From NCBI GenBank assembly GCA_030529505.1, contig JAUMWT010000008.1, forward strand, positions 1 to 64,000: a stretch of DNA of 64,000 bases, written 5' to 3'. Under the pieces are notes generated by a model. It saw nothing but the letters and a program-made list of their open reading frames with translations. It ran no database searches and had not been told where the DNA came from. Below are positions 1,030 through 20,465 of the stretch, one piece after another (position 1 is the first letter of the stretch; each line of letters opens with the position of its first letter). Both the position numbers and the translations under genes were made by a program. This DNA is from Allobrachymonas sp. Lineage in GTDB: Bacteria > Pseudomonadota > Gammaproteobacteria > Burkholderiales > Burkholderiaceae_C.

Positions 1030-2676
1030 ATGGCCATGACCGGAAATCAAGCCACCGTGATGCGTGCATTTGCCACATTGACAGCTACTGCGCCCAGCAG
1101 AGCAGATTATCAATACGTTTTGGATCACTTCAACACCCATGGCAAAGAAGCTTCCATTCAGGTGCTCAACAATCTTTTTGCCTCTTATACAGATGAGCAG
1201 CTGGCCACGATGCTGCTGAATACAACCTATCTCAATACCATTGATCTGGAAGGCGATGGAAATACCGACAACATGGGCATTGCCACGGGCTTCATTCGTG
1301 CCAATGCGGGCAACCGCATTGGCGCCATACTGGATCTAACCGAGCTGCTTTCGCAATTTACCAGTGGTCCATTCGCCTCCATCGCCAATGCCTACAATGC
1401 CAAAATCAATGCAGGCTATTTGCATGCCACCCACCCGGGTAGCAGCACTGCAGTGGCTCTCAACTTCCCCCAAAAAATAAATGGCTCCGCCGGGCACGAA
1501 ACCTTCTACGTCGACAACACCGGCTTCCAGCAAAGCACCATCGGCGGCAAAACAAGCTTCACCCGGGCCGCTTGGGTCTTTAATACAGCCGGGCAAGGAG
1601 TGTGGGAGGGCGATAGTTCGCAAAAACTGGGCAACCTGCAACCAGACACCGTATTCGATTTTGCACCTTCGTGGAAAACGACTCTGCAAATCCATTATCG
1701 CGGCCTGACTTCGCAAAAAATCGCATTGAACGACCTGGATTACAAAGTCACCAAACAAGAGCTCAACCAAGGCATCAAACACGCCATCCGTGGCGATGCG
1801 GTACTCAGTCAATTACTGGAAGTGGAAGACGGCCCCGGCGGCATTTTGAAAGTATTTGCCAAAACAGATGGCGAGCACGGCAGAAATGCGCTGCATATTC
1901 AAGGGCGTGGTCAATGGGACGGTACAAACGATGCGATTCTGAATTCGCTACCAATTGATACTTTTTTTGACAGTCTAAATGACTCGACATCCCCCCGCAC
2001 TCTGGAACAAGTAAAATACAAACTCAGTCTTGGCTACCTCTCAATGGCCATTATGACTCTCCCTCAAGTGGGACGCAGCGACGACGACACACTGGTCACC
2101 GGCAAGAATGCCGCTAATAAAATCAGCCACGTCATCGAAGGTGCCGGAGGCAACGACTTGATCGTGCTTTCTTCCACCAACGCGGCTGCAGACGATGTCG
2201 TGCAGTTCAACTCTGCCTTTGGGCACGATACGATCGTGAACTTCACCCCCAACGGCAGCAACCACGATAAACTTGACTTCGGCTTATTGCATAGAACCGC
2301 TTACGACACAACAACCAGACTGCACAACACTGAAATTGCCAACAGCACCGCGACCGTTGTAGGCCGTGTAACAAATGGGCAAATCCGGTTGGTACAAAAA
2401 AACACACAACCCGGCATAACAGCTGAAACTACTGATAATGATTCATCAGAAGACGTGAAACAACTTTTCATTGATGAGCAAACAGGTATCGCAAGCAAAC
2501 AGCTCTACATTGCCATCGACCACGATACTAGCACCGCTGATGTGTATCAAGTTACGGACGGTGGTAGCGCCAATGACCTGAATGTCACTCTGCTGGGCAA
2601 TATCACCTTGGCCAACCATGCTGATACACATGTGCCGTTCAGCTGGCTGACTTTAAATGCAGCTAATTTTGCTTAA
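1030..2676 (+). CDS. RTX/S-layer-like secreted protein, probable type I secretion substrate
   Basis: This 548-residue protein has no N-terminal signal peptide. The start is fixed by AAGGAG at 1016-1021, 8 nt upstream. The N-terminal 130 residues (NQATVMRAF, then a helical region) resemble the start of proteobacterial S-layer and RTX-type proteins. Around residues 370-420 is a haemolysin-type calcium-binding segment with one GAGGND turn followed by FGHDTIVNF and DKLDF, typical just before type I secretion signals. The last 60 residues (LYIAIDHDTSTADVYQV, then LGNITLA and a hydrophobic end) resemble the C-terminus of RsaA-type S-layer proteins, which carries the secretion signal. A T1SS lies about 7 kb downstream on the other strand and is the likely exporter (inference). 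Few nonapeptide repeats are present, so a large RTX toxin is unlikely. A broken paralogue sits at 405-588. Confidence 0.7.
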   Translation: MAMTGNQATVMRAFATLTATAPSRADYQYVLDHFNTHGKEASIQVLNNLFASYTDEQLATMLLNTTYLNTIDLEGDGNTDNMGIATGFIRANAGNRIGAILDLTELLSQFTSGPFASIANAYNAKINAGYLHATHPGSSTAVALNFPQKINGSAGHETFYVDNTGFQQSTIGGKTSFTRAAWVFNTAGQGVWEGDSSQKLGNLQPDTVFDFAPSWKTTLQIHYRGLTSQKIALNDLDYKVTKQELNQGIKHAIRGDAVLSQLLEVEDGPGGILKVFAKTDGEHGRNALHIQGRGQWDGTNDAILNSLPIDTFFDSLNDSTSPRTLEQVKYKLSLGYLSMAIMTLPQVGRSDDDTLVTGKNAANKISHVIEGAGGNDLIVLSSTNAAADDVVQFNSAFGHDTIVNFTPNGSNHDKLDFGLLHRTAYDTTTRLHNTEIANSTATVVGRVTNGQIRLVQKNTQPGITAETTDNDSSEDVKQLFIDEQTGIASKQLYIAIDHDTSTADVYQVTDGGSANDLNVTLLGNITLANHADTHVPFSWLTLNAANFA

Positions 2677-8934: not shown

Positions 8935-9373
8935 GACGTGCCATGTGTGGTTGTTTCGCCTTGAGAGCCTGGTCATTTGCTGCCTTTGCCAAGCAAGGCA
9001 CACGATGTGAAGACTTTGAACAGACTCTAAGAATCGACCGAAAAATTCTGCGCCATGCGATGAGCGACAGAGCGCAAGGGCCAACGACCCTCGGTTGAAG
9101 CAAGCCGTATTGTCCTTCAGCACCGGCCATCCGGTGTGTGCGCGGGGTCACAAAATATGCGCCCTTGGCCTGCTGCCGGTCGTTTCAGCAGCAGTTCACA
9201 AGGCAGCCGCCTGAAGTGACGGGATCGCGGGAAGGAGATGTGCCCAAGCCTGCAACCCCATGCATGTCGGCCCCATGCCCCGTGGATGAGCAAGATGTGC
9301 CGTGCAACAACCAAGCGCACCGGCCCGCTTTTGCCGCCTCTGCGGCGCAAGCCATGCCCAGCGGCTTAGCAGC
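8935..9373. other. Intergenic region with a short inverted-repeat element
   Basis: Apart from the 63-bp element at 8965-9027, no coding or structural signal is recognised. Confidence 0.55.
8965..9027. repeat. Short TIR element (63 bp) with shared core
   Basis: GAGCCTGGTCA at the left end is mirrored by TGAACAGACTC at the right. The flanks are TGA and TAA, consistent with TNA-type insertion. The core 8985-9031 recurs at 40174-40221 (inverted) and 54380-54426 with few differences. The ends resemble those of the larger elements at 29513-29687 and 37141-37314. Confidence 0.65.
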
Positions 9374-11074
9374 TTAGCGGCTCAGCCAATCATCGGCTTT
9401 CTGCACATCTTCGCTGTCGAGCAGGCCCGTGAATTTGCGCAGCTTGAGTTGCGTGAGCAAATAGTCGTGCCGCGCCTGCGCCAGATCCCGCTGGGCAGCA
9501 AACAGGGCCTGCTGCGCATCGAGCACTTCCACATGCGTGCGCACACCCAGCTCTTTGCCTTTGCTGGCCGATTGCAGGATCAAATCCTGCGCCTTGACCT
9601 GCTGCTGCGCCGCCTGGATGCGCGCCACGGCGGCCGACAGGTTCAGAAACTGTTCGCGCAGGCCCAGGCTGGTGATCTGGCGGGCATGCTCCAGCTCGCT
9701 GGAAGCCTTGTCGCGCAATGCAATGGTTTGCCGCACGCGGCCCTGCGTGCTGCCGCCCGAAAAGATCGGAATGGTCAGCTGCAAGGCCACGCTTTTGTGC
9801 TTGAGCTTTTCGTTGATGGTGGTGTAGCCCGGGCTGCGCTCGCGGCTGCTGGATGCCACCAGATCCAGCACGGGCAAATGGCCCGAGCGGGCGCGCATCA
9901 CTTCCTTGTCGGACACGTCGTAGCGGGCCTGCGCGGCACGCACGGCGGCATTGCCCTGCATGGCGGTTTGTACCAGGCCTTCCATCTCGTCGAGCTTGGG
10001 GCTTTGCGCGCGCAAGCCCTTGCTCACGCTGCGCAGGGCATGGTGCTCTTGCCCGGTGATGTTTTGCAGGATGTTCTTGCGCAAGTCGAAGGTGTTTTTG
10101 GCCGTGATTTCCTGCGCCATGGCCGATTCGTGGCGCGCCTGCGAATCCTCCACATCGGTGATGGTGCCCACGCCCGTTTCGAAGTAACGCCTGGCCCGCT
10201 GCACGTGCGCGGACATGGCCTGCGTTTGCGCCTGCGCCAGGGCCACCACGTCTTGCGCCAGCAGGGTGTCGAAATAGGCCTGGCTGACGCGCAGGATCAG
10301 CTCCTGCGTGGCGTTTTCAAATTCGGCTTGAGCCAGGCGCAGCTCGGCCCGGCTGCGCGCATATTCGGCCCACAACTGGGGACGGAAGATGGGCATGGCC
10401 AGACGGATGGATGCCGTTCGGGCCTTGTAATCGAAGGTTCGTGTCAATGGCCGCCGCGTCCGCAAAGTGGTTTGCTCGGTTTCGTTTTTGCCCAGCGAGC
10501 CATGCGCGCTGATTTGCGGCAGAAACTGTCCGCCCACCTGCTGGGGCAGGGTCTTGGCAGCCTCCAGCGCAGCGCGGGCGGCTGCGTATTGCATGTCGCG
10601 CTCCAGCGCCAACTGGTACACATCCAGCAAGCTGCTGGGCTGGGCCTTGGCGGCAGCGGATGCGCTGGCGGCGGGGCTGGTGGCCTGGTTGGTTGCGGTT
10701 GCGGCTGCGACTACGGTTGCTGTAGCAACGTCTGGCGGCTGCACAGCATCTGTGGCTGCTTCTGCTGGCTGAGCCTGCTTCTCGGCCACCTGGGCCTTGG
10801 CGCCGCGTTTGCTCTTGGCCGCTTTCTTTTTGGATGAAGCCGCAGTCGCGGGGGCAGCCATTGGTGTGGCTGATGCGCTTGGTGCGGCCGATGCAGCCAG
10901 CGCAGAGGCAGAGGTTGCAGTTGACGGCTTCGCTGCCGTTTCAGCCGCATCGGCCGCGCTGGCCAATGCGGACGGCGGGGCCATGGTTTCGGCACGCAAG
11001 AGGCTGCTGCCACTCAGCAGGCCCAGCAAGAGCATCAAGGCCGGGGTTTGCTGCAAAACGCTTCGTTTCATCAT
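9374..11074 (-). CDS. TolC-family outer membrane protein of a type I secretion system
   Basis: A 566-residue outer membrane channel component. A signal peptide (MMKRSVLQQTPALMLLLGLL, cleavage after a short LLRA segment) is followed by an unusual Ala/Lys/Pro-rich stretch of about 115 residues. The TolC-type outer-membrane efflux domain then starts at LLDVYQLALERDMQYAAARA and has the usual two repeats of long helices (ARSRAELRLAQAEFENA, YDVSDKEVMRARSGHLPVLDL). The start overlaps the stop of the membrane fusion protein gene as ATGA (11074-11071), showing an operon. It would form the outer exit duct for the substrate at 1030-2676 (inference). Confidence 0.9.
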   Translation of the reverse strand: MMKRSVLQQTPALMLLLGLLSGSSLLRAETMAPPSALASAADAAETAAKPSTATSASALAASAAPSASATPMAAPATAASSKKKAAKSKRGAKAQVAEKQAQPAEAATDAVQPPDVATATVVAAATATNQATSPAASASAAAKAQPSSLLDVYQLALERDMQYAAARAALEAAKTLPQQVGGQFLPQISAHGSLGKNETEQTTLRTRRPLTRTFDYKARTASIRLAMPIFRPQLWAEYARSRAELRLAQAEFENATQELILRVSQAYFDTLLAQDVVALAQAQTQAMSAHVQRARRYFETGVGTITDVEDSQARHESAMAQEITAKNTFDLRKNILQNITGQEHHALRSVSKGLRAQSPKLDEMEGLVQTAMQGNAAVRAAQARYDVSDKEVMRARSGHLPVLDLVASSSRERSPGYTTINEKLKHKSVALQLTIPIFSGGSTQGRVRQTIALRDKASSELEHARQITSLGLREQFLNLSAAVARIQAAQQQVKAQDLILQSASKGKELGVRTHVEVLDAQQALFAAQRDLAQARHDYLLTQLKLRKFTGLLDSEDVQKADDWLSR

Positions 11075-12450
11075 TGCTCCCGCAGTCCGGTGGAAAGTCT
11101 GGTGACCAGCGGATCGATCAGGTACTGCATCAGCGTTCTTTCGCCGGTGCGCACGATCACGGCCGCCTGCATGCCGGGTTGCGGCACGATGTGGTTGGCG
11201 CGCAGCTCTTCTTCGCCCTTGGGCGTGATTTCGATGCGGCCCTGGTAGTAGGGAAAGCCCGTGCGCGGGTCGCTCAGGCGGTCAGCCGAGAGCTGCACCA
11301 GCTTGCCTTCGATGGCGGGCGATTTGCCCCCGCCCAGCAGAATCTGGAAGTTGACCGTGACCAGGCTGCCCACCTTGACGGTGTTGATGAGGTTGACGGG
11401 GAATTGCGCCTCGATCACGAGCTTGTCGCCCTGGGGCACGATGTCCATGATGTGTTCGCCCGGGCGAATCACGCCGCCGATGGTGGCCACGTTCAGGCCC
11501 ACCACATGCCCTTCGATGGGCGAGCGGATGGTGGCGCGCTCGTAAGCTTCCAGCGCTGATTTGTATTTGTCGTGCAGCACCGCCACTTCTTTTTGCACCT
11601 CGGCCAGTTGCAGGCCCACTTCCTTGTTCTGGTCCAGCTCGCGCTGCAGCTTCTTGAGCTGCAATTCGCCGATGGCCGCCTGCATGCGCGCGACTTGCGC
11701 GGCATCGTTGCCGCGCGTGCCCGACACATCGGCTACGGCCCTTTCCAGATCGTGCACCTTGCTGCGGGGCGCAAAGCCCTCGGCGGCCAGCTCGCGGTAG
11801 GCGGCCAGCTCCTTGTTGAGCGCGCTCAGCTGCGCGCCTTTGCCGCCCTGAATCGAGTTCAGGCCGCGGATGTTGCTGTGCAGGCCCTGGATCATGGTGT
11901 CCATGGTTTTGAGCTCGCCCACCAGTGCCGAGCGGCGCGCTTCGAACAAACTGGTTTGCGCGCGCATGGTGTCGGCGATCTGTGGCACTTGCTCGCCCAT
12001 TTCGTGCAACTCGGCCGGGAAGGTGATTTGCTTGGCCTTGTCGCGCTCGGCCTGCAGGCGCGACTGCATCGCCAGCATCTGCGCGTATTGCAGTTGCACG
12101 ATGTCGTGCTGGGCTTTCACGTCCGTGTCGTTCAGGCGCACCAGCACGGCGCCGGCCGGCACCAGGTCGCCTTCATGCACGGCAATTTCCTGCACGATGC
12201 CGCCATGCAAATGCTGAATCGTTTTGCGCTTGCTGCCCACAATGACCACGCCATTGCCGGGCACGCCCGAATCCAGCGGCGCAAAGCAGGCCCACAGCAA
12301 AAAAGCGCCCAGGCCGAGCCAGAACACCCAGGCGCCCAGGCGAATGGTTTTGCGCGTTTCGCTCGCCACGGCGTCGTCCGAAAGGGGCTCGGCCCGGCCA
12401 GACAGGCCCAGGCCTTGCAGCAATTTTTGATACCACGGTTTGTCGTTCAT
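11071..12450 (-). CDS. HlyD-family membrane fusion protein of a type I secretion system
   Basis: A 459-residue periplasmic adaptor. One N-terminal membrane helix (LGAWVFWLGLGAFLLWACFA) is followed by a lipoyl/biotinyl-like half (HGGIVQEIAVHEGDLVPAGA), a long coiled-coil hairpin (about residues 90-280), the second half-motif (IRSPIEGHVVGLNVATIGG), and a C-terminal beta-barrel domain (GMQAAVIVRTGERT). This is the PrtE/AprE type. The ATG at 12450 was chosen over a frame start 10 codons upstream because AAGGATCAAC precedes it. The gene sits between the ABC exporter and the TolC-like gene. Confidence 0.92.
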   Translation of the reverse strand: MNDKPWYQKLLQGLGLSGRAEPLSDDAVASETRKTIRLGAWVFWLGLGAFLLWACFAPLDSGVPGNGVVIVGSKRKTIQHLHGGIVQEIAVHEGDLVPAGAVLVRLNDTDVKAQHDIVQLQYAQMLAMQSRLQAERDKAKQITFPAELHEMGEQVPQIADTMRAQTSLFEARRSALVGELKTMDTMIQGLHSNIRGLNSIQGGKGAQLSALNKELAAYRELAAEGFAPRSKVHDLERAVADVSGTRGNDAAQVARMQAAIGELQLKKLQRELDQNKEVGLQLAEVQKEVAVLHDKYKSALEAYERATIRSPIEGHVVGLNVATIGGVIRPGEHIMDIVPQGDKLVIEAQFPVNLINTVKVGSLVTVNFQILLGGGKSPAIEGKLVQLSADRLSDPRTGFPYYQGRIEITPKGEEELRANHIVPQPGMQAAVIVRTGERTLMQYLIDPLVTRLSTGLREQ

Positions 12451-12641
12451 GTTGATCCTTGAAGATCGAAAAAGATGCACATTCAGTCTGTTTCACTCGC
12501 CCCGGATGGGGCCTGGGAAGGGGCTTGAAGCCGAGCCACTCAGGGCTGGGCGGTACGCGGCCACCAGGGCCTGCGAAACCCGGCACCCGCAGCGGTGTTG
12601 GCCTCGCCGCCACGCTGCACGGCCCCACCCACAGCTCTTCC

Positions 12642-14495
12642 TTACGCCTCGCCTTTCGTCCCGCCGCCTGCATCGCCCTCGCCTGTGGGCTTAGGGGCTT
12701 GGGGCTGGCCAGCGCCCGGGCTTGGTGGCTCGCTCGAGGCCGAGTCGGCAGGCCCGCCCTGTGCCTTGTTCTGCGCGGCCTTTTGCAGCAACTGTGCCGG
12801 CTTCTGCTGCTGCGCGCCGCCTTGCAGGGCCTGCATGACCTTGTCGCGCGGGCCAAAAGCCTGCACGCTGCCATTGACCAGCAAGAGCAGCTTGTTGACA
12901 ACGGCCAGAATGCTGCTGCGGTGCGAGATCAGCACCACCGTGCTGCCCAGGGCCTTGAGTTGCATCACGGCCTGCACCAGCGCGGCTTCGCCGCTGTCGT
13001 CGAGGTTGGAGTTGGGTTCATCGAGCACCACGAAGGCCGGGTTGCCGTAGAGCGCACGCGCCAGCCCCAGGCGCTGGCGCTGGCCGCCCGAAAGGTGCGA
13101 GCCGCCTTCGCCGATTTCGGTCTCATACCCTTTGGGAAATTTCAGAATCATTTCGTGCACGCCTGCCATCTTGGCCGCCGTGACGATTTTTTCGGCATCC
13201 AGCGGGCCAAAGCGGCAGATGTTTTCGGCCACGGTGCCAGCAAACAGCTCGATGTCTTGCGGCAAATAGCCCACGGCCGGGCCCAGCTCCTGCTTGCTCC
13301 ACTGATACACATCGGCGCCATCCAAACGCACCTTGCCCGCAATGGACGGCCACACGCCCACCAGCAGGCGCGCCAGCGAGGATTTGCCCGAGGCCGAGGG
13401 CCCGATCACGCCCACCACATCGCCCGGCTGCGCCTGAAAGCTCACCTGATTCAGAATCACCTGCTGGCCGCCCGGCACCTTGGCCACCACATGTTCCACC
13501 TGCAAATGCCCAGCCGGGCGCGGCAGGCTCATGGTCTCTTTGCGCTCGGGGTTTTCTTCCAGCAGTTTTTCCAACCGCGTGTAGGCCGTGCGCGCCGACA
13601 GGAATTGCTTCCACGCCCCAATGGCCAGCTCAATGGGGGCCAAAGTCTTGCCCAGCAGAATGGAGCCAGCAATCATGCCGCCAGGCGTCATCTTGCCCTC
13701 GATCACCAGCCAGGCGCCCAGGCCCAACACCAGCGACTGCACCGCGATGCGGATGGATTTGGTCAAGGACGTGATGCTGGCCGAACGGTCGCTGGCCTGC
13801 GCTTGCAGATCCAGAAAATGTATCTGCTTTTCGCGCCAGCGGTTTTTCAGGTTGTCGAGCATGCCCATCGCCTCAATCACCTCGGCATTGCGCAAGGTGT
13901 TGGTGGCGTAGGCGGTGGAGTTGTTGGCTTCCTTGTTGGCTTCGGTCAAGGGCGCGCGCGTGATTTTTTCGGTGAGCCAGGCCAGGCTGCACAGCACGAT
14001 GGCCGTGATCACCGCAAACACGCCCAGCCAGGGGTGCAGCAGAAAAATCACCAGCAGATAAATCGGCGCCCAGGGCGCATCGAAAAAGGCAAACAGCCCT
14101 GCCCCCGTGAGGAACTGGCGCACATGGGTCAAATCGGCCAAAGCCGCGCCTGCGCTGCCCATCTGGCGCTTGAGGTTCTGCTCGAACGAGGCCACGAACA
14201 CGCGGTCGTTCATGCGCAGATCAATGCCTGTGCCAATGCGCACGAGCAGGCGCGAGCGCGCCAGCTCCAGCAGCGCCTGCACGATGTAGAGCAATACGAT
14301 CACCAGCGTGAGCATCAGCAGGGTCGTGCCGCTGCGGCTTTGCAGCACGCGGTCGTACACCTGCAGCATGTAGATCGTGGGCACCAGGCCCAGAATGTTG
14401 ATCAGCATGCTGAACACGCCAGCGGCCATGAAAGCCCGGCGAAATTGCAGCAAAACGGCGGCCAACTCGGAACGGAAATTGATTTTTGGTTTCAT
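12642..14495 (-). CDS. Type I secretion ABC exporter (PrtD/RsaD type permease-ATPase)
   Basis: A 617-residue protein. An N-terminal six-helix transmembrane domain starts at FRRAFMAAGVFSMLINILGLV with the typical PTIYMLQVYDRV segment. A nucleotide-binding domain follows, with Walker A GPSASGKSS, signature LSGGQRQRLGLARAL and Walker B VVLDEPNSNLD. No peptidase C39 domain is present, as in exporters of proteases and S-layer proteins. The tail after about residue 570 is a Gln/Ala/Pro/Gly-rich extension. It is followed after about 190 bp by the HlyD-like gene and preceded 18 bp upstream by the TnpB-like small gene, all in one direction. Confidence 0.92.
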   Translation of the reverse strand: MKPKINFRSELAAVLLQFRRAFMAAGVFSMLINILGLVPTIYMLQVYDRVLQSRSGTTLLMLTLVIVLLYIVQALLELARSRLLVRIGTGIDLRMNDRVFVASFEQNLKRQMGSAGAALADLTHVRQFLTGAGLFAFFDAPWAPIYLLVIFLLHPWLGVFAVITAIVLCSLAWLTEKITRAPLTEANKEANNSTAYATNTLRNAEVIEAMGMLDNLKNRWREKQIHFLDLQAQASDRSASITSLTKSIRIAVQSLVLGLGAWLVIEGKMTPGGMIAGSILLGKTLAPIELAIGAWKQFLSARTAYTRLEKLLEENPERKETMSLPRPAGHLQVEHVVAKVPGGQQVILNQVSFQAQPGDVVGVIGPSASGKSSLARLLVGVWPSIAGKVRLDGADVYQWSKQELGPAVGYLPQDIELFAGTVAENICRFGPLDAEKIVTAAKMAGVHEMILKFPKGYETEIGEGGSHLSGGQRQRLGLARALYGNPAFVVLDEPNSNLDDSGEAALVQAVMQLKALGSTVVLISHRSSILAVVNKLLLLVNGSVQAFGPRDKVMQALQGGAQQQKPAQLLQKAAQNKAQGGPADSASSEPPSPGAGQPQAPKPTGEGDAGGGTKGEA

Positions 14496-14513
14496 GATGA
14501 AGAGTCGATAAAT

Positions 14514-15107
14514 TCAGCTGGCAGCCACACTCTGTACCTGCAAATAATCCGGCAAGGCCGCGCTTTGCTGCTCTTGGCGCTCGGGCTTTTCAAAGAAAAA
14601 AGTCAGCGAAAAACCTTCGCGCCCTCTTTGCAGCACCACCTCTTTGGGTGCGCTGCTTTCGAACAAGCGTGCCTGCGCCGCACCCAACTTAATCTCGAAC
14701 TGCATGCGCCCATCCAGCGTGAACAAAGACAAACTGCCTTTGCGCACGCTCAAGGTGCGCTGATCGAAATACACCGGTGCCGTAGGTGCAAAGCACAACA
14801 GGGGCAAAGGCGCCGCGCCGTCCTTGTCCACCTTCCAGGGGCTGTTCTCACCCTGGTACACCTGGCGCGCCGAGCGGCAAACGGCATAAATCACATTGCA
14901 AGCCATTTGCGAGCCCAGCTGGGGGTACTTTTCACGCAACTGGCGGTAGGCCAGATGGTGCAAAGCCACCCGGTTCCAGCAGCGCGTTTCGCGCACCGTG
15001 CGCGCCAGCCACGTGCAGGCCTCGGCGAACAGCGTTTGCAATTCGACCAGGCGCTGCAAGTGATCCCGCGACGGGTTCAGTGGACAAACAAGACGAGTGA
15101 TTGGCAT
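14514..15107 (-). CDS. Stand-alone TnpB-like N-terminal module lacking RuvC
   Basis: A 197-residue protein. Its full length follows the N-terminal half of IS605-type TnpB proteins: an initial strand and helices (LVCPLNPSRDHLQRLVEL, EACTWLARTV), a helical part with AYRQLREKYPQLGSQ and VIYAVCRSARQVY, then the strand-rich block PVYFDQRTLSV (111-121) and LSLFTLDGRMQF, ending at FFFEKPE (170-176). In TnpB the RuvC-I motif (GVDLG type) follows at exactly this point. Here the protein instead ends after 21 more residues, with no DED residues. It would keep the WED/REC nucleic-acid-binding part only. It is intact, lies 18 bp before the T1SS exporter gene in the same direction, and may be a regulator of it (inference). 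No guide RNA was identified. Confidence 0.65.
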   Translation of the reverse strand: MPITRLVCPLNPSRDHLQRLVELQTLFAEACTWLARTVRETRCWNRVALHHLAYRQLREKYPQLGSQMACNVIYAVCRSARQVYQGENSPWKVDKDGAAPLPLLCFAPTAPVYFDQRTLSVRKGSLSLFTLDGRMQFEIKLGAAQARLFESSAPKEVVLQRGREGFSLTFFFEKPERQEQQSAALPDYLQVQSVAAS

Positions 15108-15544
15108 GACAGTGCGGCGGATTGTAGCGCGTTCCTATATGAAGTTTTTTGCACGCCACGCGGATGCCCCAAAACGGCTGGCTGGCACGGGCCAATCGGC
15201 CCGCATCTGTTTCAAAAAACCAACGCCGCCGCTCGCTTTGCCGGGCTGGCTGAGGTGCGGCATTCGCGAACAAGCCAGGCCCCGCAACAGCCAGGGCGGG
15301 GTGGAACAGCCAGATCAGAGTGGTTCAAGGCAAGGGCTGCTGTTCACGGCTGCACCCAGAGACGCCTATTCACCATCTCCTTGCGGGCGCTTGAGAATGG
15401 AAGCGGGCGCTCTGCTGCGTTGCAAATTTTGTCCATAGCATGCGGGCCATGCACTGCGATTTGCGCCCTGCATCCCATCCCGCACTTTGTCCAATCACTT
15501 CACGATGAAATCTTGAACAGGCTCTCAAGCGCTCAAGCAGCGCA
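15108..15544. other. Intergenic region holding a MITE-like element
   Basis: Apart from the element at 15361-15524, nothing is recognised. The promoter of the T1SS operon should lie in the half nearest 15107. Confidence 0.5.
15361..15524. repeat. MITE-like element, copy A
   Basis: About 164 bp, homologous along its length to copies B, D and E. The left end (GCCTATTCACCATCTCC) and right end (TCTTGAACAGGCTC) are imperfect inverted repeats of each other. It ends 20 bp beyond the stop codon of the membrane glycosyltransferase gene. Confidence 0.75.
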
Positions 15545-17077
15545 TCATGGCTTGTAGGTGTTGATGCAAAACCGCTCATTGACGAATTGGCACTGGCCCA
15601 CGGCCGCTGCAGCTTCTGCCGGATTGCGCAGGGCCCACACATCAATCACGGGCCTTGCCTGCGGGTCTTTGAATCTTGCGAGCTGCTCATCGCCCGTTTC
15701 CCCGAACGAAGACGGATAAAAATACCGCAGCCAGCTTTGTGATGCGCCTTGCAGATTGCCGATTTGAACCAGGCCGCACACATCGTAAATCCATGCGTCA
15801 GGCCCTGCGAAGAAAGAAACAATGCCGATTTCGCACATTCTGATCCTCACCGGCTCGTTGGAATAAGGCTTGATGAGGTACTTGCCATCGCCCACGGCGC
15901 TTTTTCCCACTTCCTGATACGCCAAATACCCCGGCGAATTTTCATTCCACGGATAAGGTTTGTTCTTGCCCAAATTGGCCAACAGCGTCAGCGCAAATGC
16001 CAGAAGCAGCAACACAGCCAAAGGCGCGGCCATTTTCATGCCGCGCTTTTGATAAATGGCCACGCTGACCGCCAACATGATGGCCCAGAGCGCGATCATG
16101 AAATTTTCGCTGTACCAAGTGAAATTGCCGGGCATGGAAACTGCAATCAGCAGCAGCAAACAGATGGCTGACACGACCGGAACAGCCGCTCTTGCCAGCA
16201 AAAGAGCAAATGCGGCCGGCAAGCCAATCAAGATCCAGCCCACGACAGGCCCATTCAAACCCATCATTTGAGCGATATCGCCCGGAAGAATTTCAATCAA
16301 ATTCTTGTCGGTGAACATTTTGAGCTTGCCGGTGATTTGCTTGGACCAGATGGTGCTGGGAATGGGATAAACGCCCAGAAGCAGCATGATCGCCGCATAC
16401 ACCAAAAAGCCGAGCAAGAGCGCCAGCATGATTTTGAACAAAGCCTGGGGCTGTGAAAGATAGATCAGCACCGTAGAGATGATCGCCACCACGCCGATTT
16501 CGGGCCTGGAAAGGCCCACCAGCAGCAAAGCCAGCCCGATTGCAAAGTGATTTTCCGTTTTTTCGCTCAACAGCTTGACCAATGTAAACAGCGAAAGCAG
16601 CAGCACCCCGCCTTCCATCAGAAAAAGGGTATCCAGGGCCATGCTCAACAAAAAGAAAGCGCTGCCCAGCAACAAATAGGACTTGAGCCGATTGCACCAA
16701 AATGGCAGAAAGCATAAAAACGCGACGAAACCGCTGCACAAAAAAGCGAACCGTGCGGCTTCAATGGTTCGCAAAGGCACATTGAAAAATTCCAAGGCCC
16801 CAAACGCCGGCACCAAGGTCAATAGCCTCAGCGGCGAACTGGAAAGCAGCATGCCCGATTCCGCGATCGGGAAATAGCGCGCGGTGCCCAGCTCCACGAT
16901 GTTGGCAGCCATGTGCAAATAAATGAAGCTGTCGTCGAAATACGCGGTTTTCTTGAACAGGAAAAAAGCGCTTGCCCCCATCGCGGAAAAAACAAGGGCG
17001 CATGCAGCGGCCAGCAGGCCCGCATTCGATCGCCCCAGCCACGCAAAGTCGAACCGTGTTTGCTTGTCGGGCTGCAT
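15545..17077 (-). CDS. GT-C-like polytopic membrane protein, candidate arabinofuranosyltransferase
   Basis: A 510-residue protein with about 10-12 hydrophobic helices. The first periplasmic loop carries YFDDSFIYLHMAANI, the acidic DD motif position used by GT-C enzymes that take sugars from polyprenyl phosphates. The C-terminal 120 residues are a soluble, presumably periplasmic, domain (VRIRMCEIGIVSFF). The gene starts 1 bp after the DprE2 gene ends and is the last gene of an operon for decaprenyl-phosphoryl-arabinose. A role as the transferase that puts D-arabinofuranose on a glycan or pilin is inferred from this context. The acceptor is unknown. Confidence 0.6.
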   Translation of the reverse strand: MQPDKQTRFDFAWLGRSNAGLLAAACALVFSAMGASAFFLFKKTAYFDDSFIYLHMAANIVELGTARYFPIAESGMLLSSSPLRLLTLVPAFGALEFFNVPLRTIEAARFAFLCSGFVAFLCFLPFWCNRLKSYLLLGSAFFLLSMALDTLFLMEGGVLLLSLFTLVKLLSEKTENHFAIGLALLLVGLSRPEIGVVAIISTVLIYLSQPQALFKIMLALLLGFLVYAAIMLLLGVYPIPSTIWSKQITGKLKMFTDKNLIEILPGDIAQMMGLNGPVVGWILIGLPAAFALLLARAAVPVVSAICLLLLIAVSMPGNFTWYSENFMIALWAIMLAVSVAIYQKRGMKMAAPLAVLLLLAFALTLLANLGKNKPYPWNENSPGYLAYQEVGKSAVGDGKYLIKPYSNEPVRIRMCEIGIVSFFAGPDAWIYDVCGLVQIGNLQGASQSWLRYFYPSSFGETGDEQLARFKDPQARPVIDVWALRNPAEAAAAVGQCQFVNERFCINTYKP

Positions 17078-17078
17078 G

Positions 17079-17831
17079 TCAAATATCCATTTTGTTGAAG
17101 ATGAAGGCGGGCAGATGCCGAATCACCAGCATGATCAGCCGCCATTTGCCCGGCGTGTAAATAAGTGGCTTGCCCGCTGCGATGCCGGCAACGATCTGTT
17201 GGGCCACGCTTTCAACGGGCGCCAGCTTGGCCCCTTGGCCCTTGAGGTGCGCCGTCATGGGGGTATCGGTCGGGCCGGGTTTGATCAGCACCACCTGAAC
17301 GGCCGTGCCCGCCAAGCGGTGCTGCAGGCCCTGGGCGTAGCGCGTGACCAGCCCCTTGGCGGCCCCATACACGTAGTTGGATTTGCGCCCCCGGTCGCCC
17401 GCCACGGAGCCAATCAGGGCGATCGTGCCGTGATTGGCTTTTTCCATCTCTTGCGCAAAGGCTTCGGCGTAGAGGACGGGCGAGATGCCGTTGATAGCCA
17501 AGGCATCACGGCAGGCAGGCAAATGGCGCTGGCACCCGGCCTGATCGGGCAAGGAGCCATGCGCAATCAAGGCAATGTCCACACGCCCGGATTGGGCCAT
17601 GCTCCCCACCGTGGCGCTGATGGCTTCGGGGTTCAGAAAATCTGCCTGAACGCAGCGAATCTCGGACTGCGGGCTGCGCGCCCGCAGATCGGCGGCCACC
17701 CGCTCAAGGCGCTGGGCGTCGCGCCCCACCAGCGTCAGGTCGGCGGCTTGGTCGGCCAGCCACAGCCGGGCGCAGTGTTCGGCGATGGCCGAGGTGGCGC
17801 CCACGATGACGATTTTTTTCCGTTTCAGCAT
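17079..17831 (-). CDS. dprE2: DprE2-like decaprenylphospho-D-erythro-pentulose-2-ulose reductase
   Basis: A 250-residue short-chain dehydrogenase. It has an N-terminal nucleotide-binding GATSAIAEHCARLW, NG at the Asn position (AINGISPVLYA), Ser in LIGSVAGDRG, and the YGAAK catalytic pair. The C-terminal part (TPGKWRLIMLVIRHLPAFIF) matches the membrane-near end of mycobacterial DprE2. It would reduce the keto intermediate made by DprE1 to decaprenyl-phosphoryl-arabinose. It directly follows the DprE1 gene with no spacing and precedes the membrane transferase gene. Confidence 0.82.
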   Translation of the reverse strand: MLKRKKIVIVGATSAIAEHCARLWLADQAADLTLVGRDAQRLERVAADLRARSPQSEIRCVQADFLNPEAISATVGSMAQSGRVDIALIAHGSLPDQAGCQRHLPACRDALAINGISPVLYAEAFAQEMEKANHGTIALIGSVAGDRGRKSNYVYGAAKGLVTRYAQGLQHRLAGTAVQVVLIKPGPTDTPMTAHLKGQGAKLAPVESVAQQIVAGIAAGKPLIYTPGKWRLIMLVIRHLPAFIFNKMDI

Positions 17832-19136
17832 TCAATCCCCCATCAAACGGCGCGAAAGCCCCGAGCTGATGCCCGCATCCCGATACTGCCTGAATTCGGC
17901 CAGACGCGGATAGCCCGCTTCGAAGAGTGCCCTGGGCATGCGCGCATCCTTGGCCGGGTAGAGGCGCCCCCCGGCCTCGCGCACGATGGCGTCCAGCCGC
18001 TCGAAAAGCCGGTGCGTGCGCTCCCCGCGATTCGGAAAATCCAGCGCCAGCGTCACCCCGGGCTGCGCAAAGCTCAGCATGCCCACGGGCTGGCGGTGGC
18101 CAAAGGTCTTCAACACGGCCAGGAAGGAACCCTCCCCCGATCGGGCGATGGCATGGAGCATGGCCTGCACCGCGTCTTGCCCCACTTCGCGCGGCACCAC
18201 GCTCTGGTACTGGAAAAAGCCCTTGGGCCCGTACATGCGGTTCCATTCGAGGAGGTTGTCAAGCGGGTAGAAAAAAGGCTCGTAGTGCGCCACGGCCCGC
18301 CCGGCCCGCCACTTCTTGAGCTGGTAATACGCCGTATTGAACAGGCGCAGCGAGAGCTGATTGACCAGCGAAACGGGCGGCACGATGGGCATGGTCAACT
18401 GGCGCGCCTGGGGGGCCGGGCGCTGGTCCGCATCCGCAGCGGGGTTGCCGCGCATGAACACGCCGCGCCCGCCGCCGCCCGTGATGCAGTCGATCCACGA
18501 CACCGTGTGCTCCCAGCCCGCTTCGGAATCATCGGCCAGCCGGAAGAACTCGCCCAGATTGGCATAGGGCAGGGTTTCGGTATCCAGCCACGGGCCGTTG
18601 ACCCGCCGCAACTGGATCTCGGCCTGGGTGATCAGCCCCGTCAGGCCCAATCCGCCCACCGTGGCGGCGAACCAGTCGGGCCGCTCGTTCGGACCGCATT
18701 GGATGACTTCGCCATCGGTGCGCATGAGGGTCAGGCTTTGCACATGGTCGCCAAAAGAGCCCAGCACGTGGTGGTTCTTGCCATGCACATCGTTGGCGAT
18801 GGCGCCGCCAACGGTCACCAACTGGGTGCCAGGCGTCACCGGCAGCATCCAGCCGCGGGGAATGACCAGGCGCTGGATGTCTCGCAGCAGCACGCCGGCT
18901 TCGCACACCAGGCGGCCGCTGCTGTCGTCAAAAGCGATGAAATGATCCAGCCCGGTCGTGAGCCAAAGCGTGCCTTCGGGATTCAGACAAGCATCCCCAT
19001 AGCTGCGGCCCATGCCATGCGCCAGGCCCGGCTGGGCCCCGCGGCCAAGCAGATCCTTGATCCGGGCAGGATCATTCAGCGCCACCACATGGTGCGGTTC
19101 GGCGCTCAAACGCCCCCAGGAAGCAAGCGGCCTCAT
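17832..19136 (-). CDS. dprE1: DprE1-like decaprenylphosphoryl-beta-D-ribose 2'-oxidase
   Basis: A 434-residue FAD-dependent oxidase. GMGRSYGDACLN (41-52), VTVGGAIANDVHGKNHH (107-123, His118 at the flavin position), YPLDNLLEWNRMYGP and LYPAKDAR (Lys396) match mycobacterial DprE1 nearly motif for motif. It oxidises the 2'-OH of decaprenyl-phosphoryl-ribose in the first half of the epimerisation to arabinose. The residue matching Cys387 of the Mycobacterium tuberculosis enzyme is Ala364 (TLALDFP). Its start overlaps the stop of the GtrA gene as ATGA (19136-19133). Confidence 0.88.
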   Translation of the reverse strand: MRPLASWGRLSAEPHHVVALNDPARIKDLLGRGAQPGLAHGMGRSYGDACLNPEGTLWLTTGLDHFIAFDDSSGRLVCEAGVLLRDIQRLVIPRGWMLPVTPGTQLVTVGGAIANDVHGKNHHVLGSFGDHVQSLTLMRTDGEVIQCGPNERPDWFAATVGGLGLTGLITQAEIQLRRVNGPWLDTETLPYANLGEFFRLADDSEAGWEHTVSWIDCITGGGGRGVFMRGNPAADADQRPAPQARQLTMPIVPPVSLVNQLSLRLFNTAYYQLKKWRAGRAVAHYEPFFYPLDNLLEWNRMYGPKGFFQYQSVVPREVGQDAVQAMLHAIARSGEGSFLAVLKTFGHRQPVGMLSFAQPGVTLALDFPNRGERTHRLFERLDAIVREAGGRLYPAKDARMPRALFEAGYPRLAEFRQYRDAGISSGLSRRLMGD

Positions 19137-19546
19137 GCCACCTCCATTCGGAAGACGTAACGCTTGTCGAGCTGGTACTTGATCAGATAGCCAATGGCCA
19201 GGCCCAGCACGCCGCCAAGGTAGCGCATGCCCTTGGTCGCGAAAAGGGCCTGAAAGCCGAACTCGAAGCCCCAGAAGATCGCGGTCGTGGCCAGGCCCAT
19301 GACGGTGTAGAGCGCAAACGTCCGGGTGTCGTGGGCGACACTGCGTGCCCGAAAGCGAAAAATGTAGCGCTTGTCGAGGATGTACTTGAGCACCAAACCC
19401 ACTCCGGTTCCCACCATAATCGAGAGCAAAATGGCCAAAGCGCCGCTGTAAACGCGCAATACCAGATCCTGGGCAGCAATATTTGCTACAGTTGCCATCA
19501 GTGCAAAAATGGCATAGTTAATCGCCAGCCTGGCCGAAGAAAACAT
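19133..19546 (-). CDS. GtrA-family membrane protein
   Basis: A 137-residue protein with four predicted membrane helices and the two half-repeats typical of GtrA (VLKYILDKRYIFRF and LIKYQLDKRYVFRM at equivalent places). GtrA proteins are proposed to help flip polyprenyl-phosphate sugars across the inner membrane. Here the likely cargo is decaprenyl-phosphoryl-arabinose. It is the first gene of the leftward operon GtrA-DprE1-DprE2-GT-C, divergent from the phosphoribosyltransferase gene. Confidence 0.85.
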   Translation of the reverse strand: MFSSARLAINYAIFALMATVANIAAQDLVLRVYSGALAILLSIMVGTGVGLVLKYILDKRYIFRFRARSVAHDTRTFALYTVMGLATTAIFWGFEFGFQALFATKGMRYLGGVLGLAIGYLIKYQLDKRYVFRMEVA

Positions 19547-19592
19547 TAAGTACTTTCACCAAGAATCAAAAAACACAGCGCATGATACCGCA
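19547..19592. promoter_or_regulatory. Compact divergent promoter region of the arabinose-lipid cluster
   Basis: Only 46 bp separate the starts of the two divergent operons. At least one promoter must therefore overlap this gap or the opposite coding sequence, and the two are likely co-regulated. No operator motif is recognised. Confidence 0.35.
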
Positions 19593-20465
19593 ATGACTCA
19601 CTCACTTTTTACACAAATACGGGGCCTCATCCGGCTGATGCGGCCCAAGCAATGGGTCAAAAACGGCTTTGTGCTGGCCCCGCTGATTTTTTCCGGCGCG
19701 TTTTCGGATGCGGCAGCCATCAAACAAGCCCTCTTGGCCGTGCTGCTGTTCTGCGTGGCCTCATCGGCCACCTACATCGTCAACGATCTGCACGATATCG
19801 AGCGCGACCGCCGCCACCCCACAAAGTCCCACACCCGCCCCTTGGCCGCCGGCATCGTTTCGCTCCCCGCTGCCTTGATCCTGCTCGCAACTCTTTGCGC
19901 CATATTGGTGGGCGGCTGGTTCGCGGCTCCGCAGGTGGTGCTGGTCATCGGCGCCTATCTGGCCCTGAACCTGGCCTACACCTTTGTGCTCAAGCACCAG
20001 CCCGTGGTCGATATCTTCACCATCGCCATCGGATTCGTTCTGCGCGTTTACGCCGGCGCCAAGGCGCTGAGCGTGCCCGTGTCCTCGTGGATGTTCATCA
20101 CCACCTTGTGCCTGGCCTTGTATCTGGCCGCCGTCAAACGCCGTCAGGAGCTCAGCCAAAGTGGCATCGAAGGCCGGAAAGTGCTGGAAAAATATTCCGT
20201 CTCGCTGGTGGATCGCTATGCGGAAATGGCGGCCACCGGGGCGCTGCTGTTCTACAGCATGTTCGTGATGTCGGCCAAGCCCGAACTGGTCATCACCGTG
20301 CCGCTGGTTCTGTTTGGCTTGTTCCGCTACTGGTTCGTGGTAGAAACCCTGGATGGCGGCGAATCGCCCACCGACGCCTTGCTGGCAGACTGGCAGCTCT
20401 TGCTGACCGTGGTGCTGTGGGTGCTTGCCTGCGGCTGGGCCTTGTGGCTGGCCCAAAAAGGGTGA
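19593..20465 (+). CDS. Decaprenyl-phosphate phosphoribosyltransferase (UbiA family)
   Basis: A 290-residue membrane prenyltransferase-fold enzyme with about nine helices. The first Asp motif NDLHDIERDRRHPTK (64-78) is the variant seen in the 5-phosphoribose-1-diphosphate:decaprenyl-phosphate transferases (Rv3806c type) rather than in ubiquinone enzymes, and LIRLMRPKQWVKN lies near the N-terminus. The enzyme would make decaprenyl-phosphoryl-5-phosphoribose, the first lipid of the pathway. The neighbouring phosphatase, DprE1 and DprE2 genes support this. The phosphatase gene follows after 6 bp. Confidence 0.85.
   Translation: MTHSLFTQIRGLIRLMRPKQWVKNGFVLAPLIFSGAFSDAAAIKQALLAVLLFCVASSATYIVNDLHDIERDRRHPTKSHTRPLAAGIVSLPAALILLATLCAILVGGWFAAPQVVLVIGAYLALNLAYTFVLKHQPVVDIFTIAIGFVLRVYAGAKALSVPVSSWMFITTLCLALYLAAVKRRQELSQSGIEGRKVLEKYSVSLVDRYAEMAATGALLFYSMFVMSAKPELVITVPLVLFGLFRYWFVVETLDGGESPTDALLADWQLLLTVVLWVLACGWALWLAQKG

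Follow-up and report, generated by a model that had tools for sequence, protein, structure and literature searches.

Autorepressors that are encoded in the operon they control, and that act on inverted-repeat operators, are a known kind of regulator. The solo protein described here resembles them in that its gene is the first of the operon in most loci and a paired operator surrounds its own promoter. It differs from the usual ones in having no match to a helix-turn-helix or other known DNA-binding family in Pfam or NCBIfam, and in that its proposed DNA reader comes, by homology, from an RNA-guided nuclease. The operon is of the PrtD/HlyD/TolC type I secretion kind; the three exporter parts are alike, and the added first gene is what differs.

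In the TnpB of the IS200/IS605 element ISDra2, the REC and WED domains read the TAM, according to the available extract of PMC10097598. The solo protein is homologous to TnpB over the N-terminal 168 residues, and the operator opens with the five bases that form the TAM of its relatives; unlike TnpB, it lacks RuvC, a zinc-finger domain, and transposon ends, has no detected omega-RNA, and occupies a fixed place in a chromosomal operon. TldR proteins, in the text excerpted from PMC13418256, retain a RuvC-like domain in inactivated form, along with a guide RNA that lies adjacent. The solo protein is similar to TldR in being TnpB-derived, domesticated, tied to adjoining genes, and, by inference, promoter-targeting; however, it lacks the whole nuclease half and its site is a short constant arm.

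The gene was found in the window, a stretch of 64,000 nucleotides from Allobrachymonas sp. (GCA_030529505.1, contig JAUMWT010000008.1), with the following features.

14514..15107, minus strand: solo TnpB REC/WED-like gene, 197 aa, an intact ORF with an ATG start, gene 1 of the operon
12642..14495, minus strand: type I secretion permease/ATPase (ABC, PrtD type), TIGR01842 above cut-off
11071..12480, minus strand: HlyD-family periplasmic adaptor, TIGR01843 above cut-off
9374..11074, minus strand: TolC-family outer-membrane channel, TIGR01844 above cut-off
15133..15143, minus strand: putative operator half-site TTCATATAGGA, the only arm in the window, its first five bases being the TAM of related TnpB elements
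15121..15126, minus strand: -10-like box TACAAT, downstream of the half-site and ahead of the start codon, a layout also seen in relatives

The type I secretion operon (ABC, HlyD, and TolC) is complete and lies on one strand with the solo gene, which is separated from the ABC gene by 18 nt (14496-14513). The earlier note had described an intact 197-codon gene 18 bp ahead of an ABC exporter gene, and the ORF coordinates agree. The encoded protein is about 22 kDa and basic, with a pI of 9.3 (family median 9.7, residues 1-175). Neither a PF07282 match nor a second solo copy was found in its own genome (84% complete). The window ABC (12642-14495) is closest, at 54-61%, to ABCs of family genomes without the solo gene; the family genomes that carry these nearest ABCs show a single strong ABC match, and most solo operons have tandem ABCs.

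It had also been claimed that the gene matches the N-terminal half of TnpB and stops where RuvC-I should begin, and profile alignment bears this out. When the 79-member solo family was compared by hhalign with a TnpB alignment in which three sequences are full-length and one is truncated, a probability of 99.9 and an E-value of 3.6e-34 were obtained. Solo residues 4-175 correspond to TnpB 1-168, TnpB RuvC-I (GVDIGE) begins at about 180, and the solo ORF ends just ahead of that position. PF07282 is present in all three full-length TnpBs of the alignment and PF01385 is above cut-off in two; both the RuvC catalytic domain (PF01385 region) and the TNB zinc finger (PF07282) are absent from the solo protein. 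At the level of sequence, homology to the REC/WED N-terminal half of TnpB is confirmed.

Scanned as a single sequence, the solo protein of the window matched nothing in Pfam at E<=10 or in NCBIfam at E<=1, and the 79-member alignment gave no convincing Pfam family (best E 0.0086, one member). The PADLOC Cas12f model was touched by five of the 79 members, with a best E of 0.0015. By tblastn against plasmids, 15 records were retrieved, most of them annotated as 'RNA-guided endonuclease TnpB family protein' or transposase. The best match was an IS605 tnpB of Methylomarinovum (42% identity, E 6e-29), which is annotated as a transposase and adjoins tnpA; the remaining matches share 25-31% identity. 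Nothing credible was found in a PDB profile search with the solo family, which gave one chance match, and the D. radiodurans plasmid gene had no match among solved chains. Judged from motif spacing alone, and as a guess of ours, solo Q67/M68/N71 could be the equivalents of ISDra2 K76/F77/Q80. Beyond a variable linker, residues ~186-191 (window 14535-14552) form a P-x-Y motif that is conserved at the C-terminus (consensus PEYVxV, here PDYLQV) and for which no counterpart was seen in the TnpB alignment; perhaps it serves dimerisation.

The place of the gene is nearly invariant. The exporter ABC gene directly follows the solo gene on the same strand in all 45 loci whose solo match reaches at least 262 bits, with a stop/start overlap of 4 nt in 28 of them; in a few of the 45, the longest ABC frame begins inside or ahead of the solo gene. 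Among 80 named loci, a set that overlaps with the 45, the solo gene is directly ahead of a type I secretion ABC in 76, and the other four end at contig edges. This linkage holds in single-ABC operons (the window, Azonexus, G700, and G1083) as well as in tandem-ABC operons, and G1083 shows the same arrangement in another order. A TolC gene stands ahead of the solo gene in L112, L115, L116, and L169. No constant tnpA was found at the locus, and the fixed synteny with the exporter (45/45 and 76/80) speaks against mobility of the gene, in accordance with the earlier statement that neither a transposase nor a transposon end lies downstream of it. The exception to exporter linkage is L109 (8354-8968), a second, partial solo copy in G391; it has its own exact TTCATATAGGA site, and an exporter is absent from the stretch that was read. 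Across 113 distinct loci no other gene family is constant, the next being present in at most 16 (antisense and overlapping frames of operon genes set aside), and on this count another dedicated regulator beside the operon was rejected.

In a family-level survey, 42 of 399 sampled genomes matched the solo gene, 38 of them at >200 bits, which is far beyond chance. The order-level survey gave matches in 18 of 399 genomes, full-length TnpBs among them, and in the class-level survey of 321 genomes there were, apart from the own genome and G1083 (184 bits), just two weak matches; the surveyed genomes are mostly drafts and partly MAGs. In GTDB contigs, 215 stretches encode relatives, of which the best 80 span Comamonadaceae, Rhodocyclales, Gallionella, and others; one relative labelled Chitinophaga is probably a mis-binned MAG. 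All 27 solos sampled for a tree fall on one side of a branch with support 97/96, and the TnpBs of G449 and G493 are nearest to the solo clade, in a tree that is rooted at the midpoint only and has some long TnpB branches. Omega is 0 to 0.23 in the seven closest solo gene pairs; the median over 942 pairs is 0.31, which includes less reliable values from distant pairs.

These results bear on whether a decayed TnpB fragment simply came to lie ahead of an exporter by chance. Truncated relatives do exist, such as the second copy in G391 (L109) and L118, whose frame departs from the RuvC sequence. However, the solos form one clade, their synteny is fixed, dN/dS is low among close pairs, and the operator described below is conserved; decay was therefore rejected for the clade and is extremely improbable. 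The earlier note would have been refuted by homologues that are only scattered decayed fragments; they instead form a conserved clade with a fixed operon position and low close-pair dN/dS.

An 11-bp site, TTCATATAGGA, is common to the sequences upstream of the solo operons, and the conservation ends at 11 bp. At least one site with no more than one mismatch is present in 105 of 113 promoters, and two or more in 92. As controls, the reversed motif was found in none, and 60 shuffled motifs were found in 0.8 promoters on average, with one shuffle reaching 23. Most often (61 promoters), the sites form an inverted pair whose TTCAT ends face outwards, the two starts being mostly 24-28 nt apart. In at least 78 of the 113 promoters the right arm extends over the start codon, and all of these 78 carry, between the arms, a hexamer with at most two mismatches from TATAAT starting at -26 to -11 (shuffle mean 50.6, maximum 59). 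TAM-led sites thus usually flank a -10-like box in the solo operon promoters. The window promoter has one arm only, those of L172 and L221 have no half-site with up to one mismatch, and in G495, where TolC is the first gene, tandem sites are found at the TolC start.

The operator over the gene's own promoter co-occurs with the gene. Of 30 genomes that have both gene and exporter, 27 carry the exact motif at the operon, versus 0 of 51 exporter-only genomes (p 1.8e-18), a count of 51 that leaves out G155, which is truncated by a contig end; a single exact motif on another contig is present in each of three of the 51. Two exporter operons without the solo gene, in G014 and G015, were read whole and contain no site with up to one mismatch. 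Within the 399 genomes of the family, 34 of the 38 with the gene and 35 of the 361 others contain exact motifs, and close motif pairs are found in 25 of 38 versus 0 of 361 (p 1.7e-30); the exact motif is absent from G032, G033, G257, and G406. When 40 of 45 gene-bearing genomes were scanned, 34 had the exact motif, with 63 matches in total, and 61 of these lie at the exporter operon or at the partial copy in G391, the exceptions being one each in G244 and G389. A general regulon site was rejected, since nearly all matches lie at this operon. Off-operon exact copies at G235:C83:19747, G235:C189:4060, G244:C1:12019, and G389:C14:15476 are possibly further targets or chance.

Because the operator is conserved and restricted to operons with the gene, we strongly favour the solo protein as a domesticated DNA-binding regulator of the secretion system that would be more reduced than TldR. 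The earlier note had suggested a DNA- or RNA-binding regulator; the first part gains support from the conserved operator, and the second does not, as neither a guide-RNA gene nor extra synonymous-site constraint was found.

It can be argued that the solo protein serves the exporter as a cytoplasmic accessory or docking component and that some other cellular protein reads the operator. The tight stop/start overlap with the ABC gene and the association with both single-ABC and tandem-ABC exporters would agree with such a role. However, 51 of 81 assessable exporter-bearing genomes have no solo gene, no second gene is constantly present at the locus, and the motif begins with the TAM of the solo protein's own relatives. 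Since the motif is absent from exporter-only operons, a general host regulator would also have to track the solo gene. A purely accessory role is quite unlikely. Even less probable is a translational autoregulator that binds UCCUAUAUGAA around the start codon of an mRNA with almost no leader. The right arm is indeed placed over the start codon in at least those 78 promoters, but the left arm is inverted, as expected for DNA, and is probably not transcribed since it lies upstream of the -10-like box; moreover, the tandem sites of G495 precede the TolC gene.

The sequence TTCAT at the left ends of the relatives was proposed from the arm sequence before these ends were looked at. It stands directly before the left end in 11 of 11 placed ends of related full-length TnpB elements (G054 6/6, G493 3/3, and G547 2/2), a count that omits G054 copy L009 and G547 copy L067, whose left ends were not placeable. 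TTCAT is present in TnpBs on both sides of the nearest fork; therefore, the ancestor of the solo clade probably had TTCAT. The distant element L121 would have TTCAC, by alignment and in our reading. Ten viral-contig elements were scanned from the left-end stem alone, and TCAT flanks it at exactly 21 nt in six; L273 has TCAT at 19 nt, which makes seven of ten, and in L275, L279, and L280 it is not at the expected place. L274, L276, and L271 have one left end in common and three different flanks, all ending in TCAT. The half of TnpB that reads the TAM (REC and WED) is, by homology, the half that is kept in the solo protein.

The 5' region showed no guide-RNA gene, and none was seen to overlap the coding sequence. 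Upstream identity, compared in eight close groups, stays high between about -40 and the gene and drops further out; one Limnohabitans group shows a small drop, and a two-row Malikia pair is high again further upstream. Identity at fourfold sites is flat along the solo gene (0.73-0.79) and is 0.74 at the ABC start, so that no raised constraint appears at either place. The two Rfam matches obtained for window 9000-20000 fall well short of their gathering scores (best E 0.015). Neither an adjacent omega-RNA nor a right end was recognised, most groups having no conserved non-coding block, and a TldR-type guide RNA cassette was not found beside the solo gene. A guide-RNA gene at the locus was rejected on the lack of any sign in upstream identity, fourfold-site constraint, and Rfam.

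The strongest rival is a TldR-like RNA-guided repressor that would read TTCAT as a TAM, with a guide encoded elsewhere pairing with ATAGGA. It is the strongest because TldR, a known precedent for RNA-guided reading, depends on guide nucleotides 1-6 (PMC13418256, as excerpted) and the half-site is a 5-nt TAM plus 6 nt; the six bases after the TAM equal the TldR seed in number, and therefore the motif length alone is compatible with a short-guide mode. Against it are the fall in upstream identity beyond about -40, the fourfold sites, and the two sub-threshold Rfam matches, and 4-nt-overlap operons leave no downstream room for a guide. RuvC, which in the extract of PMC10097598 holds much of the omega-RNA scaffold in ISDra2, is gone from the solo protein. 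In addition, ATAGGA is nearly invariant over many genera, and the site also stands at the tnpB starts of elements whose guides should vary. We regard guided reading as unlikely.

A protein-only, guide-free REC+WED regulator that acts at TTCATATAGGA and represses its own operon with the exporter appears likely. We infer that the solo protein itself would bind the half-sites at its own promoter, with no role for RNA; the arms lie on either side of the -10 box and in many cases extend over the start codon, and binding would repress the solo gene and ABC/HlyD/TolC, giving negative feedback on exporter synthesis. In a wider form, which seems probable on balance, the TAM-reading half of TnpB would constitute a family of guide-free transcription factors with an extended TAM as operator, and full-length relatives may repress themselves likewise.

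Some such relatives carry the same site. Viral contigs encode tnpB relatives (L263-L283), and the comparison set of 12 tnpA-less relatives consists of eleven of them and L117 of G449, none with tnpA within 900 nt upstream (L283 being cut by the contig end); L269 and L282, whose tnpB region is the same as that of L278, and L284 (28% identity) were left out. TCCTAT directly followed by ATGAA occurs at the tnpB start codon in 7 of the 12 with up to one mismatch and in 10 with up to two, L280 and L117 having no site at this threshold. Other ORF starts in these loci have it in 0 of 377 and 1 of 377, respectively. It is absent from all six relatives with tnpA or a remnant, including L119 and L120, where the remnant is our reading and was not flagged by the script motif, and from the more distant TnpBs L121, L246, L247, and L284. 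The starts of L274, L276, and L271 have T for the last A of the site, which is the first, variable base of their TAM. Guide-free self-repression of tnpB through a start-codon site, e.g. TCCTATATGAA, is possible in the tnpA-less relatives; a promoter or translation signal could in principle also account for the site.

The operator site may predate the loss of RuvC. One evolutionary scheme is that the site descends, probably, from the start-codon site of tnpA-less tnpB genes in nearby full-length relatives, and that the lineage at the type I secretion operon would then have lost RuvC and gained a second inverted arm.

In a literature search that covered few subscription papers, no RuvC-less TnpB family, no link between TnpB and type I secretion, and no report of the motif as its site was found; the 11-mer TTCATATAGGA is present in literature on other subjects. 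If the proposed scheme is true, the TAM/PAM reader of TnpB/Cas12 can live as an independent, sequence-specific DNA-binding domain, and nucleases of mobile elements can become host regulators by a new route that goes further in reduction than TldR. Whether TnpBs control their own genes in a guide-free way could then be tested directly. A compact (~22 kDa) DNA-binding scaffold would become available together with a proposed site, and an exporter that is found across many betaproteobacterial genera would have a named regulator.

As for what is exported, window 1030-2676 encodes a 548-aa protein with no Pfam match, possibly exported; a comparison of it with an RTX protein found nothing. Likely exporter substrates near some loci are trypsin + Calx-beta, RTX/DUF4214, and serralysin-like proteins. 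The trypsin + Calx-beta proteins, at L015:12363-13577 and L240:1692-2891, are from two distant genomes.
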